From contig JAAWNQ010000023.1 of assembly GCA_022799035.1 (NCBI GenBank), positions 1-34,408 of the forward strand: 34,408 nt of DNA. Reading direction: 5' to 3'. The position numbers were made by a program, and so were the translations under genes. Shown in pieces: positions 14,161-18,759 of the stretch. How positions within the stretch are numbered: the first letter of the stretch is position 1; every line of letters starts with the position of its first letter. The notes beneath the pieces were generated by a model. The model saw only the letters and a list, made by a program, of their open reading frames with translations. It did not search any database and was not told the DNA's origin. This DNA is from Oscillospiraceae bacterium (GTDB lineage: Bacteria; Bacillota; Clostridia; Oscillospirales; Oscillospiraceae).

Positions 14161-14318
14161 AAGTTAAAATTGAAAAGTTAAAAATGAAAAAGCTAAGGTG
14201 TGCGGGGAACAGGGGAATCCCCTTTGAAAAATCGGTGTTTGAAATCCTGGCTTGCCAATAAAAGGGCAAAGTTTAGAGGGTGTGGCTTTTTCACTTTTCA
14301 TTTTTAACTTTTCACTTT
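14161..14318. repeat. A/T-rich inverted-repeat element B (MITE-like)
   Basis: Perfect 20-base terminal inverted repeats (14171-14190 and 14295-14314, TGAAAAGTTAAAAATGAAAA and its complement) flank about 100 bases with no open frame. Further degenerate GTGAAAAAT units extend both ends. The left 24 bases are identical to part of element A. The right end abuts the TGA of mutS. No transposase is present, so this looks like a non-autonomous element or an extragenic palindrome. Confidence 0.8.
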
Positions 14319-16906
14319 CAAAGTTCCTTTTTTAACTGGTATACCAGATTCATCGCCTCGATGGGGGTCAGGGTGTCTATGTCCACCGCCCGAAGCCTGG
14401 CGGCCACCCCTTGGGCGGTGACCTCCTCCAGGGAGACCTGGGCGGCGGGGGAGTGGGCGGTGGGGGCGGTGGCCCGGGCGGCGGGGGTGGACTCCAATTC
14501 CCCCAGGATCACCTTTGCCCGGGAAATGACCCGTTCGGGGACCCCGGCCAGCTTGGCTACCTCGATGCCGTAGCTGGCCTCGGCGCCCCCCCGGACGATC
14601 TTTCGGAGGAAGATGATGTCGTCCTGCCGCTTTTTGGCGGCAATGTTGTAGTTCTTCACCCCGGGGATCTCCCCCTCCAGAGCGGTGAGCTCATGGTAGT
14701 GGGTGGCAAAGAGGGTCTTGGCCCCCAGCCGTTTGGAGTCGGCGCAGTACTCCAGCACCGCCCGGGCGATGGCCATGCCGTCGTAGGTGGAGGTGCCCCG
14801 GCCGATCTCGTCCAGGATGAGAAGGCTTTTCCCTGTGGCGTTTTTCAGCAGCTCGGCCACCTCGTTCATCTCCACCATGAAGGTGGACTGGCCGGCGGAG
14901 AGGTCGTCGCTGGCCCCGATGCGGGTGAAGACCCGGTCCACCACCCCGATGTGGGCGGCCTTCGCCGGGACGAAGGAGCCCATCTGGGCCATGAGGACGA
15001 TGAGGGCCACCTGGCGCATATAGGTGGACTTACCCGCCATATTGGGGCCGGTGATGATGGCGCACAGGTCCCCCTTCCCGTCCATGTAGGTGTCGTTGGG
15101 GACAAAAAGGCTGCCCTTCGCCGCCTTCTCCACCACGGGATGGCGGCCCTCTGTGATCTCGATCACGTCGGACAGGTCCACCCGGGGCATACAGTAGCCG
15201 TTCTCGGCGGCCACCCGGGCAAAGGAACAGAGCACATCCACCTGACCCACAGCGGCGGCGGAACGCTGGATGTCCGCCACCCGCTCCGCCGCGGCCTGGC
15301 GCACCCGGCAGAAGATCTGGTACTCCAGGGCGGTAAGCTGGTCCTGGGCGGAGAGGATGGTGTTCTCCATCTCCTTGAGTTCAGGGGTGATGTACCGCTC
15401 GCAGTTCACCAGGGTCTGCTTGCGGATATAGGCGTCGGGCACCAGGGCGGAATTGGCCTTGGAGACCTCGATGTAGTAGCCGAAAACCTTGTTGTAGCCC
15501 ACCTTCAGACTCTTGATGCCGGTTTTCTCTTTCTCCTGGGCCTCCATGGCGGCCACCATGTCCTTGCCCCCGGTGAGGATCCCACGGAGCCGGTCCACCT
15601 CCGGGTCGGCCCCGGGGCGGATAAAGCCGCCCTCCCGGACGGAGAAGGGGGGCTCCTCCACAAAGGTCTCGTCAATAAGCCCCCGAAGCTGAGGCAGGTC
15701 GTCCAGGCTGTCCCGGAGGACGGTGAGGAGGGCGGAGGAGAAGGGGGAGAGGAGCAGCCGCAGGGCGGGGAGCTTTCCCAGCCCCCGGGAGAGGGAAACC
15801 AGATCCCTCCCGCCGGCGGTGCCGTAGACCACCCGGCCGATGAGCCGCTCCAGGTCGGTGACCTCCTTCAATTCCCTTGACAGCTCCTGGCGGGTGACGG
15901 AATCATTCACCAGATCCCCCACCGCCCCCTGGCGTTTGCCGATCTGGACAGGGGAGAGGAGGGGCCGCTCCAGCCAGGAGCGGATGAGCCGGTGGCCCAT
16001 GGGGGTCCCCGTCTTGTCCAGCACCCAGAGAAGGCTTCCCTTTTTCTCGCCCCCCCGAAGGGTCTCGGTAAGCTCCAGGTTCCTCCGGGCGGTAAGGTCC
16101 AGCTCCATGAACTCCCCGGTGGTGTAGTAATTTACGGTGGACAGATGGGATAGGTCGGTCTTCTGGGTCTCCACCAGGTAGGACATGAGGGCCCCCGCCG
16201 CCTGAAATACAGGTCCCTCGGGCAGGCCGTGGTCGGGACCAAACTGCTTCTCCACCGCCGCGGCCGCCCGGTCCGGGTCAAAGGCGGCGGTGGACCCGGT
16301 CTCTGTCCGGCAGGACAGACGCTGCTCCAGGAAAATCCCCAGGGCCTTGTCCTCCACAGCCTCCCGGGACAGGACCACCTCCCGGGGGGAGTAGCGGCCC
16401 AGCTCGTTTTCCACATGCTCCCGCCAGCCGGAGCCGTCAAATCCGGTGGCCGAGACCTCTCCGGTGGACAGGTCCGCGAAGCACAGCCCCGCCCGGTCCC
16501 CTGTCAGGCACAGAGCGCAGAGGAAGTTATTTTTTCCCTCCTCCAGCATGGTCTCCTCAATGACGGTGCCGGGGGTGACGATGCGGATGATATCCCGGTC
16601 CACCAGGCCCTTGGCCTGGGCCGGGTCCTCCATCTGCTCGCAGATGGCCACCTTGTAGCCCTTGGCGATGAGCCGGGAGATATAGGCCTCGGCGGCGTGG
16701 TAGGGCACCCCGCACATGGGGGTGCGCTCCTCGGGGGGCCGGGTCCGGTCCCGGCTGGTGAGGGTCAGCTCCAGTTCCCGGGAGGCCGTCTTGGCGTCCT
16801 CGTTGAACATCTCGTAGAAGTCCCCCAGCCGGAAGAAGAGGATGCAGTCCGGATGGTCGGCCTTGATTTTATGGTATTGGAGCATCATGGGGGTGCCTTC
16901 GGCCAT
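14318..16906 (-). CDS. mutS: DNA mismatch repair protein MutS
   Basis: Encodes 862 residues, full length. The N-terminal mismatch-binding domain has LFFRLGDFYEMF, with the Phe-x-Glu wedge (F-Y-E), and PMCGVPYHAAEAYI. Connector, lever and clamp regions follow. The ATPase domain has ITGPNMAGKSTYMRQVALI (Walker A, near residue 620), LLILDEIGRGTSTYDG (Walker B) and FATHYHEL. MutS recognises mispairs and recruits MutL, encoded two genes downstream. The start MAEGTPMMLQYHKIK matches the family; the ribosome site AGCGAGG is modest. It is separated from the upstream miaB by the GIY-YIG gene and its flanking repeats. Confidence 0.98.
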   Translation of the reverse strand: MAEGTPMMLQYHKIKADHPDCILFFRLGDFYEMFNEDAKTASRELELTLTSRDRTRPPEERTPMCGVPYHAAEAYISRLIAKGYKVAICEQMEDPAQAKGLVDRDIIRIVTPGTVIEETMLEEGKNNFLCALCLTGDRAGLCFADLSTGEVSATGFDGSGWREHVENELGRYSPREVVLSREAVEDKALGIFLEQRLSCRTETGSTAAFDPDRAAAAVEKQFGPDHGLPEGPVFQAAGALMSYLVETQKTDLSHLSTVNYYTTGEFMELDLTARRNLELTETLRGGEKKGSLLWVLDKTGTPMGHRLIRSWLERPLLSPVQIGKRQGAVGDLVNDSVTRQELSRELKEVTDLERLIGRVVYGTAGGRDLVSLSRGLGKLPALRLLLSPFSSALLTVLRDSLDDLPQLRGLIDETFVEEPPFSVREGGFIRPGADPEVDRLRGILTGGKDMVAAMEAQEKEKTGIKSLKVGYNKVFGYYIEVSKANSALVPDAYIRKQTLVNCERYITPELKEMENTILSAQDQLTALEYQIFCRVRQAAAERVADIQRSAAAVGQVDVLCSFARVAAENGYCMPRVDLSDVIEITEGRHPVVEKAAKGSLFVPNDTYMDGKGDLCAIITGPNMAGKSTYMRQVALIVLMAQMGSFVPAKAAHIGVVDRVFTRIGASDDLSAGQSTFMVEMNEVAELLKNATGKSLLILDEIGRGTSTYDGMAIARAVLEYCADSKRLGAKTLFATHYHELTALEGEIPGVKNYNIAAKKRQDDIIFLRKIVRGGAEASYGIEVAKLAGVPERVISRAKVILGELESTPAARATAPTAHSPAAQVSLEEVTAQGVAARLRAVDIDTLTPIEAMNLVYQLKKEL

Positions 16907-16947
16907 GGGGAGGACCTCGCTTTCTGTTTCTTTCTATAGGGGGAATA

Positions 16948-16986
16948 CGGATTGCCACGGCGGACCTTGCCCGCCTCGCAATGACG
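16948..16986. repeat. Palindromic repeat, copy 1 (GGATTGCCACG...CTCGCAATGACG type)
   Basis: A 39-base imperfect hairpin: ATTGC..GGCGG pairs with CCGCC..GCAAT. It lies 17 bases beyond the GIY-YIG stop, in the gap before mutS. The ends CGGATTGCCACG and CGCAATGACG recur in opposite orientation at 17306-17342. The sequence type, CGTCATTGCGAG...GTGGCAATCC, is one I recall as dispersed in many bacterial genomes. Confidence 0.85.
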
Positions 16987-17003
16987 GGCCTGCGGGGCCA
17001 ACG

Positions 17004-17291
17004 TCAGAAAAGGGTATTGTATAAGTCTTGCCAGCTTGGGTTTTTCGTCTCTACCAGCTTGTTTTTTCTGGCCCGGGGCCAGGATTTGATCTGCTTTTCC
17101 CGCTCAATGGCGGCCCGGGCAGTGTCCAGGGTTTCAAAATAGCCCAGCTTTGTGATACTATATCTTGCTGTAAAGGAGCCCGGGTCCAAATGGTTTTTAT
17201 GTTCATAGACCCGGCGAGCCAAATCATTCGTCATCCCGGTATAGATGGCCACATTGGTGGCGTTGGCCAGAATATAGACACAGTACGCCAT
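17004..17291 (-). CDS. Small GIY-YIG domain endonuclease
   Basis: Encodes 95 residues. The start ATG at 17291 has GGAGGGCGGG just upstream; the longer open frame upstream overlaps miaB and is not coding. The single domain is GIY-YIG: CVYIL (GIY position), IYTGMTNDLARRVYEHK (YIG position with the conserved arginine and the EHK segment), and EREKQIKSWPRARKNKLVETKNP, the typical C-terminal helix of the small stand-alone UPF0213-like group. These proteins are presumed nucleases; their biological role is largely unknown. It is inserted between miaB and mutS and is bordered on both sides, 15 and 17 bases away, by inverted copies of the same palindromic repeat, suggesting a mobile cassette. Confidence 0.92.
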   Translation of the reverse strand: MAYCVYILANATNVAIYTGMTNDLARRVYEHKNHLDPGSFTARYSITKLGYFETLDTARAAIEREKQIKSWPRARKNKLVETKNPSWQDLYNTLF

Positions 17292-17305
17292 CCCGCCCTC
17301 CGTTC

Positions 17306-17342
17306 CGTCATTGCGAGGGCCCGCAGGGCCCGTGGCAATCCG
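17306..17342. repeat. Palindromic repeat, copy 2, inverted and overlapping the miaB 3' end
   Basis: CGTCATTGCGAG-N12-CGTGGCAATCCG, the inverse orientation of copy 1. Its centre, GGGCCCGCAGGGCCC, is itself self-complementary. It contains the last codons and the TGA stop of miaB on the minus strand and ends 15 bases before the GIY-YIG start. Confidence 0.85.
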
Positions 17343-18759
17343 CATCCGCCAGCTCTCCCCACAGGGACCAGGTGTTGGCCCCGGTGATCTCGATCTCCCG
17401 GAAGGTGCCGATAAGCTCCCGGCCGCCCTCCAGCACCCGGACCAGCCGGTTCCCCGGGGTGCGGGCGGTGAGGGCGTAGCCCTCCTCCTCGCAGACCCCG
17501 TCCACCAGACACCGGAGGGTCTTGCCGATGTAAGCGGCGTGTTTTTCCGCCGAGATGGCGTTTTGGGCCTCCACCAGGCGCTGGAAGCTGGCCTTTTTCT
17601 CTGCCATAGGCAGGGGGTCGGGCATCCTGGCCCCCGGGGTGCCCTCCCGGGGGGAGTAGATAAAGGTGAACAGGGCATCGTAACGGACCTCCTCAACGAG
17701 ACTCAGGGTCTCCTCAAACTCCGCGGTGGTTTCCCCGGGGAAGCCCACGATGATGTCGCTGGTAAGGACCACGTCCGGCACCTGCTCCCGGAGGCGGCGG
17801 ACCTTGTCCAGGTATTCCCCCCGGGTATAGTGGCGGTTCATAGCCTTTAAGACCCGGTCGTTTCCCGCCTGGACAGGGAGGTGGAACACGGGGGCTACCT
17901 TTTCGCATCGGCCCATGGCCTCAAAGAGCTTTTGGGAGGCGTCCCGGGGATGGGAGGTCATAAAGCGGATGAGGAACTCCCCGGGGATGGCGTTGATGGC
18001 CTCCAGCAGATCGGCAAAGTCGGTCTCCAGCCCCAGGTCCTTGCCGTAGGAGTTCACATTCTGCCCCAGGAGGGTGATATCCTTATAGCCCTCCTTCACA
18101 AGCCCCTCCACCTCGGAGAGCACATCCTGGGGGAGGCGGGAGCGCTCCCGGCCCCGGACATAGGGCACGATACAGTAGGTACAAAAGTTGTTGCAGCCGT
18201 ACATGATGGAGACCCAGGCCTTCACCTTCCCCTGGCGCACCACGGGGATCCCCTCGGCGATGGAGCCGGGCTCGTCCGTGTTTTCAAAGACCCGGCCCCT
18301 TCTGGTGAGCACCCGGTAAAGAAGCTCGGGAAATTTCCACAGGGCATGGGGGCCAAAGACAAGGTCCACATGACGGTAGGACTGGCGGAGCTTCTCCGCC
18401 ACATGCTCCTCCTGGGCCATGCAGCCGCACAGGCAGATGATCTGGCCCGGATGCCGCCGCTTGGCGTGAACCAGGGCCCCCACGTTGCCCAGCACCCGAT
18501 CCTCGGCGTGCTCCCGAATGGCGCAGGTATTGATAACAATGACGTCGGCGGCGTTTTCGTCGGTGGTAAAGCCGTAGCCCATGGCCCGGAGATAGCCCCG
18601 AATCCGCTCGGAATCGGCCTCGTTCTGCTGGCAGCCGTAGGTATCCACAAAGGCCAGATAGTCCCTGGGCTGAGCGGAGAGCCGCTGGGCTATTTTTTCG
18701 CAGAAATCCCTCTGCCGTTCCATGTCGGCAGGGGAGACGCGGGTGGTTTTGGTGTCCAA
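17308..18759 (-). CDS. miaB: tRNA-2-methylthio-N6-dimethylallyladenosine synthase MiaB
   Basis: Encodes 483 residues. The chosen start is TTG at 18759, seven bases after AAGGAGG; the next ATG (18723) lacks a ribosome site. The N-terminal UPF0004 domain has VDTYGCQQNEADSE, VINTCAIREHAEDR and CLCGCMAQ, whose cysteines hold the auxiliary iron-sulfur cluster. The radical SAM motif is MYGCNNFCTYCIVPYVRGRE (CxxxCxxC). A TRAM domain ends the protein. MiaB methylthiolates adenosine 37 of certain tRNAs. The final residues DCHGPCGPSQ and the stop are encoded by the palindromic repeat copy 2, so the native C-terminus appears to have been replaced or extended. Confidence 0.96.
   Translation of the reverse strand: MDTKTTRVSPADMERQRDFCEKIAQRLSAQPRDYLAFVDTYGCQQNEADSERIRGYLRAMGYGFTTDENAADVIVINTCAIREHAEDRVLGNVGALVHAKRRHPGQIICLCGCMAQEEHVAEKLRQSYRHVDLVFGPHALWKFPELLYRVLTRRGRVFENTDEPGSIAEGIPVVRQGKVKAWVSIMYGCNNFCTYCIVPYVRGRERSRLPQDVLSEVEGLVKEGYKDITLLGQNVNSYGKDLGLETDFADLLEAINAIPGEFLIRFMTSHPRDASQKLFEAMGRCEKVAPVFHLPVQAGNDRVLKAMNRHYTRGEYLDKVRRLREQVPDVVLTSDIIVGFPGETTAEFEETLSLVEEVRYDALFTFIYSPREGTPGARMPDPLPMAEKKASFQRLVEAQNAISAEKHAAYIGKTLRCLVDGVCEEEGYALTARTPGNRLVRVLEGGRELIGTFREIEITGANTWSLWGELADADCHGPCGPSQ

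Follow-up and report, generated by a model that had tools for sequence, protein, structure and literature searches.

The window analysed here (the whole stretch of 34,408 nucleotides from an Oscillospiraceae bacterium) carries, between mutS and miaB, a small gene for a GIY-YIG nuclease that is bracketed by two inverted copies of one hairpin repeat. The gene has 95 codons and a stop (17004..17291, minus strand; start ATG at 17291-17289, stop at 17006-17004). Its downstream neighbour, mutS, is an open reading frame at 14318..16906 on the minus strand, and the miaB reading frame, also on the minus strand, occupies 17308..18759, with its last codons and stop inside the right-hand repeat. The left repeat (16948..16987, minus strand) has an inner stem of GGCGG/CCGCC and the right repeat (17305..17342, plus strand) one of GGGCCC/GGGCCC, with the CGTC tag pointing towards the gene in both. 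From repeat through gene to inverted repeat the cassette extends over 16948..17342, which is the 395 bases estimated in a preliminary description of this DNA. The gene, its two neighbours and the inverted pair of hairpins were likewise correctly recognised there; the distances of 15 and 17 bases given between repeats and gene need amending, to 16 and 13 bp. That description had found no obvious target duplication, and none was seen around the cassette here.

A search of the window that presupposed no motif returned the inverted pairs 16974-16996/17296-17318 and 16940-16960/17330-17350, both of which flank the gene. The core CGTCATTGCGAG is present exactly at 16975-16986 on the minus strand and at 17306-17317 on the plus strand. 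However, with two mismatches allowed this 12-mer is found twice in the window versus an expected 2.39, and because that is not beyond chance the 12-mer alone was dropped as evidence for the repeat, the evidence being instead the full hairpin. The strict hairpin pattern, CGTCATTGCGAGN{8,38}GTGGCAATCC, has two matches in the source assembly (2.27 Mb in 65 contigs, 94.95% complete), one to each side of the gene, and its reversed-pattern control has none. As single-stranded DNA both repeats fold into hairpins (-9.6 and -10.3 kcal/mol, z -1.9 and -2.4), with 8 and 9 of 200 shuffled sequences folding as well. The stem is in two parts with unpaired bases between them, and the inner stems differ between the two copies with pairing kept in each. 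No Rfam family matched positions 16500-17800 at E values up to 1.

PF01541 is the sole Pfam domain matched by the encoded protein (E=1e-13), and residues Y6, Y17, G19, T21, R27, H31, R64, E65, K69, N84 and P85 are among those invariant across 49 relatives. The AlphaFold model is confident (pLDDT 97.4). UPF0213 provides the nearest solved structure both by profile (1zg2, E=6e-9) and by fold, BH0048 being the single solved structure with E<0.001 and Slx1 following at E ~0.01, though identity in the fold alignment is 26%. Likeness to GIY-YIG homing endonuclease genes lies in the catalytic fold, the small selfish-looking unit and possible insertion at a target; a difference is that neither intron nor intein is present here, and the score against the NCBIfam intron endonuclease model (21.3 bits) falls far below its cut-off of 56.05. 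A defence-system reading was set aside, PADLOC giving just a weak match (UzuA, E=0.0069), and no relative of the nuclease was found in 50,697 phage records at an E value of 1e-5. In a plasmid of Planktothrix agardhii (L249, 2992-3276) the gene and its repeats are located between an MmeI-type restriction-modification gene and DISARM drmA, in a defence island.

A homologue in Neisseria gonorrhoeae is 47% identical to the window protein over 91 residues and its gene has GTCATTCCCGC repeats on both sides. We take it to be a member of Ssn, which Chenal et al., reportedly in Nature Communications in 2025, are said to have described as a GIY-YIG family of site-specific single-strand nucleases. The neisserial enzyme reportedly has single-stranded DNA as its substrate, acting at a repeat that has hundreds of copies, and uses these repeats as targets in modulating DNA uptake or recombination. 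The window protein resembles it in being a small stand-alone GIY-YIG enzyme and in having a cognate repeat at its gene (two strict hairpins, the sole copies in the genome), an arrangement that is general in relatives. A link of the nuclease family to repeats has thus reportedly been published, and the connection between enzyme and repeat is probably partly known; the evidence that gene and repeats form a mobile unit may be new.

For the repeats the pertinent comparison is with the CGTC-tagged REPs, described by Di Nocera et al. 2013 (PMC3733652) as found in five phyla and apparently lacking a dedicated transposase, with neisserial dRS3 and rickettsial RPE repeats counted among them. As defined there, the tag is CGTC (or TGTC or CCTC), the first two stem positions are A-T pairs, the stem is simple, 8-9 bp long, and encloses a loop of 4-5, the tail is mostly, but not always, CCA, and copy number is high. 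Both window repeats begin with CGTC and occur as an inverted pair, and their stems start with A-T pairs (CGTC-AT...AT-CCG), the DNA fold drawing the first A unpaired. In contrast, the window stem is two-part and departs from this simple stem and loop, the tail is CCG where REPs mostly have CCA, and the genome has two strict copies, with up to 216 in relatives. On sequence grounds the repeat resembles this superfamily, to which it would belong or lie close.

Whether such an arrangement could be fortuitous, an ordinary gene with chance or terminator hairpins to each side, is best judged from its relatives, and they leave that explanation with next to no credit. In its favour is that CGTC-tagged REPs are, according to PMC3733652, mostly intergenic. 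Among 120 genomes of the family the protein matches are bimodal: eight are strong (87-232 bits, the window's included) and the others reach at most 43 bits. A repeat core is present within 200 bp of the gene in all eight strong matches, and on both sides in seven, whereas among 24 control GIY-YIG genes of the same genomes one has a core on one side and none on both. The first query contained nine repeat-derived residues, and because of this a scan of one genome for each of 84,980 species, made with a profile from which such residues were absent, gives the cleaner set. At least 588 stretches matched, at least 575 of them relatives, and the best 80 were retained (L038 and L009 among these being one contig). 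Without prior choice of a motif, the 9-mers enriched in their flanks versus distal windows were GTCATTGCG (24 loci versus 3), CATTGCGAG (22 versus 0), GTCATCCTG (20 versus 1), TGTCATTCT (20 versus 0) and GTCATTCCG (17 versus 0).

With the core written as GTCAT[TC][GCT][CT][GC], 73 of these best 80 of at least 575 relatives have it within 200 bp of the gene and 56 on both sides. The remaining seven have near-variant repeats as judged by eye, the count by pattern being kept at 73. Core density declines from 9.2 per kb beside the gene to 0.1-0.8 per kb past 600 bp. At the loci in the same 80 with enough sequence, 53 of 75 have the core on both sides, while at six larger offsets the counts are 0/70, 0/68, 0/64, 1/59, 0/57 and 0/54. 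Inverted matches of at least 14 bp joining the two flanks, sought without a motif, were present in 30 of 74 loci versus 0/64 and 0/57 at larger distances. The distal-window and paralogue controls contradict the chance and terminator readings of the hairpins, which were rejected. The preliminary description had proposed asking whether such genes are flanked more often than chance would allow; they are, and by far.

The linkage holds across phyla, loci with a named phylum spanning 19 phylum names. At the level of the order 23 of 27 loci have the core on either side and 15 on both, one locus (L244) being cut off by a contig end. A point against a mobile element is that three loci of one small clade (L236, L237 and L242, in G475 and G441) have no flanking repeats, and the gene there is possibly domesticated. 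Hairpins of the general type were seen by eye at all eight loci from a plasmid collection, though downstream only at L245. At L245 and L251 the tag is of CCTC type, a change reported for CGTC-tagged REPs in PMC3733652. The annotation of L262 and of the Sphingobium plasmid copies considered below misleads, naming the product hypothetical protein or excinuclease ABC subunit C.

Repeat type follows the protein tree, with 34 changes where 200 shuffles give 55.9 on average and never fewer than 49 (99 labelled rows, two rows left out), a fit that is partly due to shared ancestry. Between phyla the agreement is weak: 33 of 96 proteins have the repeat type of the closest relative from a different phylum, where 23.3 are expected with labels shuffled inside phyla, and 55 of 2000 shuffles do as well. 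These relationships bear on a further possibility, that the repeats owe their movement to an unrelated transposase acting in trans, the gene being merely a captured passenger. Mobilisation by other transposases is offered as a possibility in PMC3733652. However, across many phyla it is this one gene family that adjoins repeats of differing type, and type tracks the protein, leaving the passenger account very improbable.

Evidence that the unit spreads comes from genomes with several copies. In Fluoribacter gormanii 17 matches were found, many cut at contig ends. Fourteen copies share one right end, consisting of a CGTC-type hairpin and about 12 bp, after which the sequence is unrelated; the left ends are mostly lost at contig breaks, and identity is 95.2-99.7% among the pairs listed. 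A Clostridia metagenome-assembled genome, G120, has four matches; three of these, at separate locations, are related cassettes (92% identical over 422 bp in one comparison, about 81% over 420-440 bp otherwise). The inner stem of their left repeat varies and that of the right is constant. Two further copies, in G142, are 86% identical over 370 bp; in the other multi-copy genomes, G167, G157, G156, G155, G135 and G158, the copies are too diverged or match just partly. Multiple copies that share their ends and sit in unrelated surroundings, as found in relatives and not in the window genome, are what is seen with an insertion sequence that has passive MITEs. G157 and G142, from Doudnabacteria and Moraniibacteriota, have seven and five profile matches in genomes of 1.1-1.2 Mb.

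G120 also offers the clearest view of repeats that have no gene. It has 47 + 47 strict repeats (control 0), three pairs of which enclose the gene (334, 334 and 336 bp), with one chance neighbour at 2862 bp. A further 30 inverted pairs are without a gene, with spacers of 84-110 bp, 97-99 bp in 26 of them; the 20 that were fetched have lengths of 172-179 bp. The cassette ends match these gene-less pairs over 40-59 bp at 95-100% among the better rows listed, with one row at 85%. By sequence, then, cassette and gene-less pairs appear related as an autonomous element is to its MITEs. In many copies, however, similarity reaches about 50 bp past the tags, and this counts against the explanation we prefer. 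Longer mosaic units surround the fetched pairs (L266-L285), and a common AAACTNNAATTT-like motif tends to terminate the outer arms of these units.

Occupied and cassette-free versions of one site were found in relatives. Azospirillum lipoferum 4B carries the gene in its suf operon, where it separates sufB from sufC and is flanked to left and right by complete repeat pairs. The flanks match at 95-96% in A. ramasamyi, A. oryzae and strain B510, which are without the cassette there, as are three further relatives, TSH58, A. brasilense and A. thermophilum. Cassette-free sites align just roughly with occupied ones, the suf spacer itself affording no base-by-base alignment between the two, and no target duplication was seen. 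Plasmids of Sphingobium TomTYG46 and TomTYG73 have repeat, gene and repeat where those of TomTYG64 and TomTYG74 have one intact repeat at the same place; TomTYG72 has none. The TomTYG73 copy of the nuclease gene carries a frameshift.

The Sphingobium sites invite the view that the repeats spread by other means, and that a free-standing homing-type endonuclease gene cuts the repeat, break repair then placing a copy of the gene there. A single repeat precisely where others have the whole cassette is what homing would leave for comparison. So, perhaps, is the inconstancy of the left inner stem in G120 beside a constant right one, as though the target had supplied one side, together with the occurrence of the cassettes' stem types among the gene-less repeats of that genome and the presence of repeats in genomes lacking the gene. 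However, the cassette-free sites in Azospirillum and in G118, discussed below, hold no repeat, the sole strict repeats of the window's own genome are the two at the gene, and loss by recombination between repeats would give the same Sphingobium picture, for which gain by homing and such loss both fit. A homing parasite accordingly seems to us unlikely, though still deserving of attention.

Co-occurrence of gene and repeats across genomes is strong, not absolute. The gene is present in 25 of 394 genomes of the order (E 1e-18). On repeat tallies counted by eye from a table of genomes, at least five strict copies are present in 11 of the 25 gene-bearing genomes versus 18 of the 369 lacking the gene (p=1.1e-7), and at least ten in 9 of 25 versus 13 of 369 (p=1.1e-6). 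Contrasts within genera can be pronounced: G469 has the gene and 216 repeats and its three genus mates 0, 1 and 0, G527 the gene and 42 repeats and its two mates none, and G022 the gene and 18 repeats versus one in each of three mates. Against our preferred explanation, however, 14 of the 25 gene-bearing genomes have fewer than five strict copies, and a fourth genus mate of G022, G446, has 23 repeats without the gene. Repeats are also kept without the gene elsewhere, with 39 in G052 and 29 in G214.

To this evidence we would put a probability of about 0.6 on the window cassette being a copy of a widespread small mobile element, in which the nuclease recognises and cuts the repeats that bracket it and so causes their spread. 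The protein would recognise the inverted repeats on either side of its own gene and most likely cut or nick folded, single-stranded copies of the repeat, for example on the lagging strand. Repair or rejoining could then copy the repeat unit, or the whole cassette, elsewhere, sometimes into an existing repeat. REPINs are non-autonomous dependants of RAYTs, and the gene-less repeat pairs may be dependants of the nuclease in the same way. The stronger proposition, that CGTC-type repeats have as their dedicated mobiliser a GIY-YIG single-strand nuclease in place of an HUH transposase, which by cutting them in folded form moves both its own cassette and the MITE-like gene-less pairs, we regard as evenly poised.

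An analogy with RAYT transposases and REP sequences had been drawn in the preliminary description, and the multi-copy cassettes, gene-less derivatives and cassette-free sites of relatives suit it well. Common to RAYT REPtrons with their REPINs and to the present case are a nuclease-type gene bracketed by inverted palindromes and dispersed repeat pairs lacking the gene; the enzyme differs, being GIY-YIG alone and not an HUH tyrosine transposase. The cassette may, by this analogy, work like a REPtron though it is not one. RAYTs are, according to PMC3733652, HUH tyrosine transposases of the IS200/IS605 group, associated with GTAG repeats. No mention of GIY-YIG occurs in that paper, nor of GIY in the passages of RepRanger 2025 consulted. 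In titles and the openings of abstracts, in a searched literature from which bioRxiv preprints are absent and where subscription papers are sparse, no printed link between GIY-YIG and REPs was found.

A nuclease gene travelling within CGTC-type repeats is a concrete candidate for their missing mobiliser, and makes the question of what moves them testable. Should the nuclease prove to be a dedicated mobiliser, there would be a further kind of bacterial REP system, spread over some 19 phylum names and transposing without a classical transposase. The idea of a REP mobiliser would then extend beyond HUH transposases, and a nuclease family reported mainly for single-strand cutting would acquire a selfish-element reading.

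As to the window copy itself, the mobile cassette of the preliminary description is borne out in relatives, and the mobility of this particular copy is a matter of extrapolation from its kin. Within the family, 113 of 120 genomes have a conserved mutS N-terminus. Thirty mutS loci were fetched, and miaB lies upstream in 25 of them and not in the other five; the cassette is at the miaB-mutS junction in three of the 25 (G000, G078 and G022). The other 22 are without it, and these include both genus mates in the draw, so that the empty junctions which the preliminary description suggested seeking in relatives do exist. G118, of the same genus as G022, has the junction with neither cassette nor repeat, its spacer giving no base-by-base alignment with the occupied site. 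In a fourth genus, G091 has the cassette beside mutS. Because four genera share the site the window copy may be old or fixed; alternatively, the site may be a hot spot, the tree favouring neither view.

That sharing is also what would be anticipated if the nuclease served its host, using the repeats as fixed targets in modulating DNA uptake or recombination with no part in their spread. Such a role accords with the reported neisserial Ssn work and with the close resemblance of the window protein to a neisserial homologue similarly flanked by repeats. Selfishness is, however, the appearance given both by the patchy distribution of the gene in the order and by multi-copy cassettes with unrelated flanks and gene-less derivatives, and a host function without mobility is, in our estimation, quite improbable.

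If the window copy did arrive as a mobile cassette, its arrival was not without effect on a neighbour. The miaB frame enters the right hairpin and has its stop codon there, at 17308-17310, and miaB ends differently in both genus mates; since the right repeat writes the end of the frame, the C-terminus of MiaB would have been changed by the insertion. Among the loci counted as cassette-free are G042 (L129) and G073 (L139), whose miaB-mutS spacers, measured as far as the mutS motif, are long (493 and 499 bases) and have no repeat core. In the genus mate G116 (L117) the spacer contains a different palindromic unit of about 54 bp, twice in tandem, so that palindromes of different kinds have gathered in this spacer.
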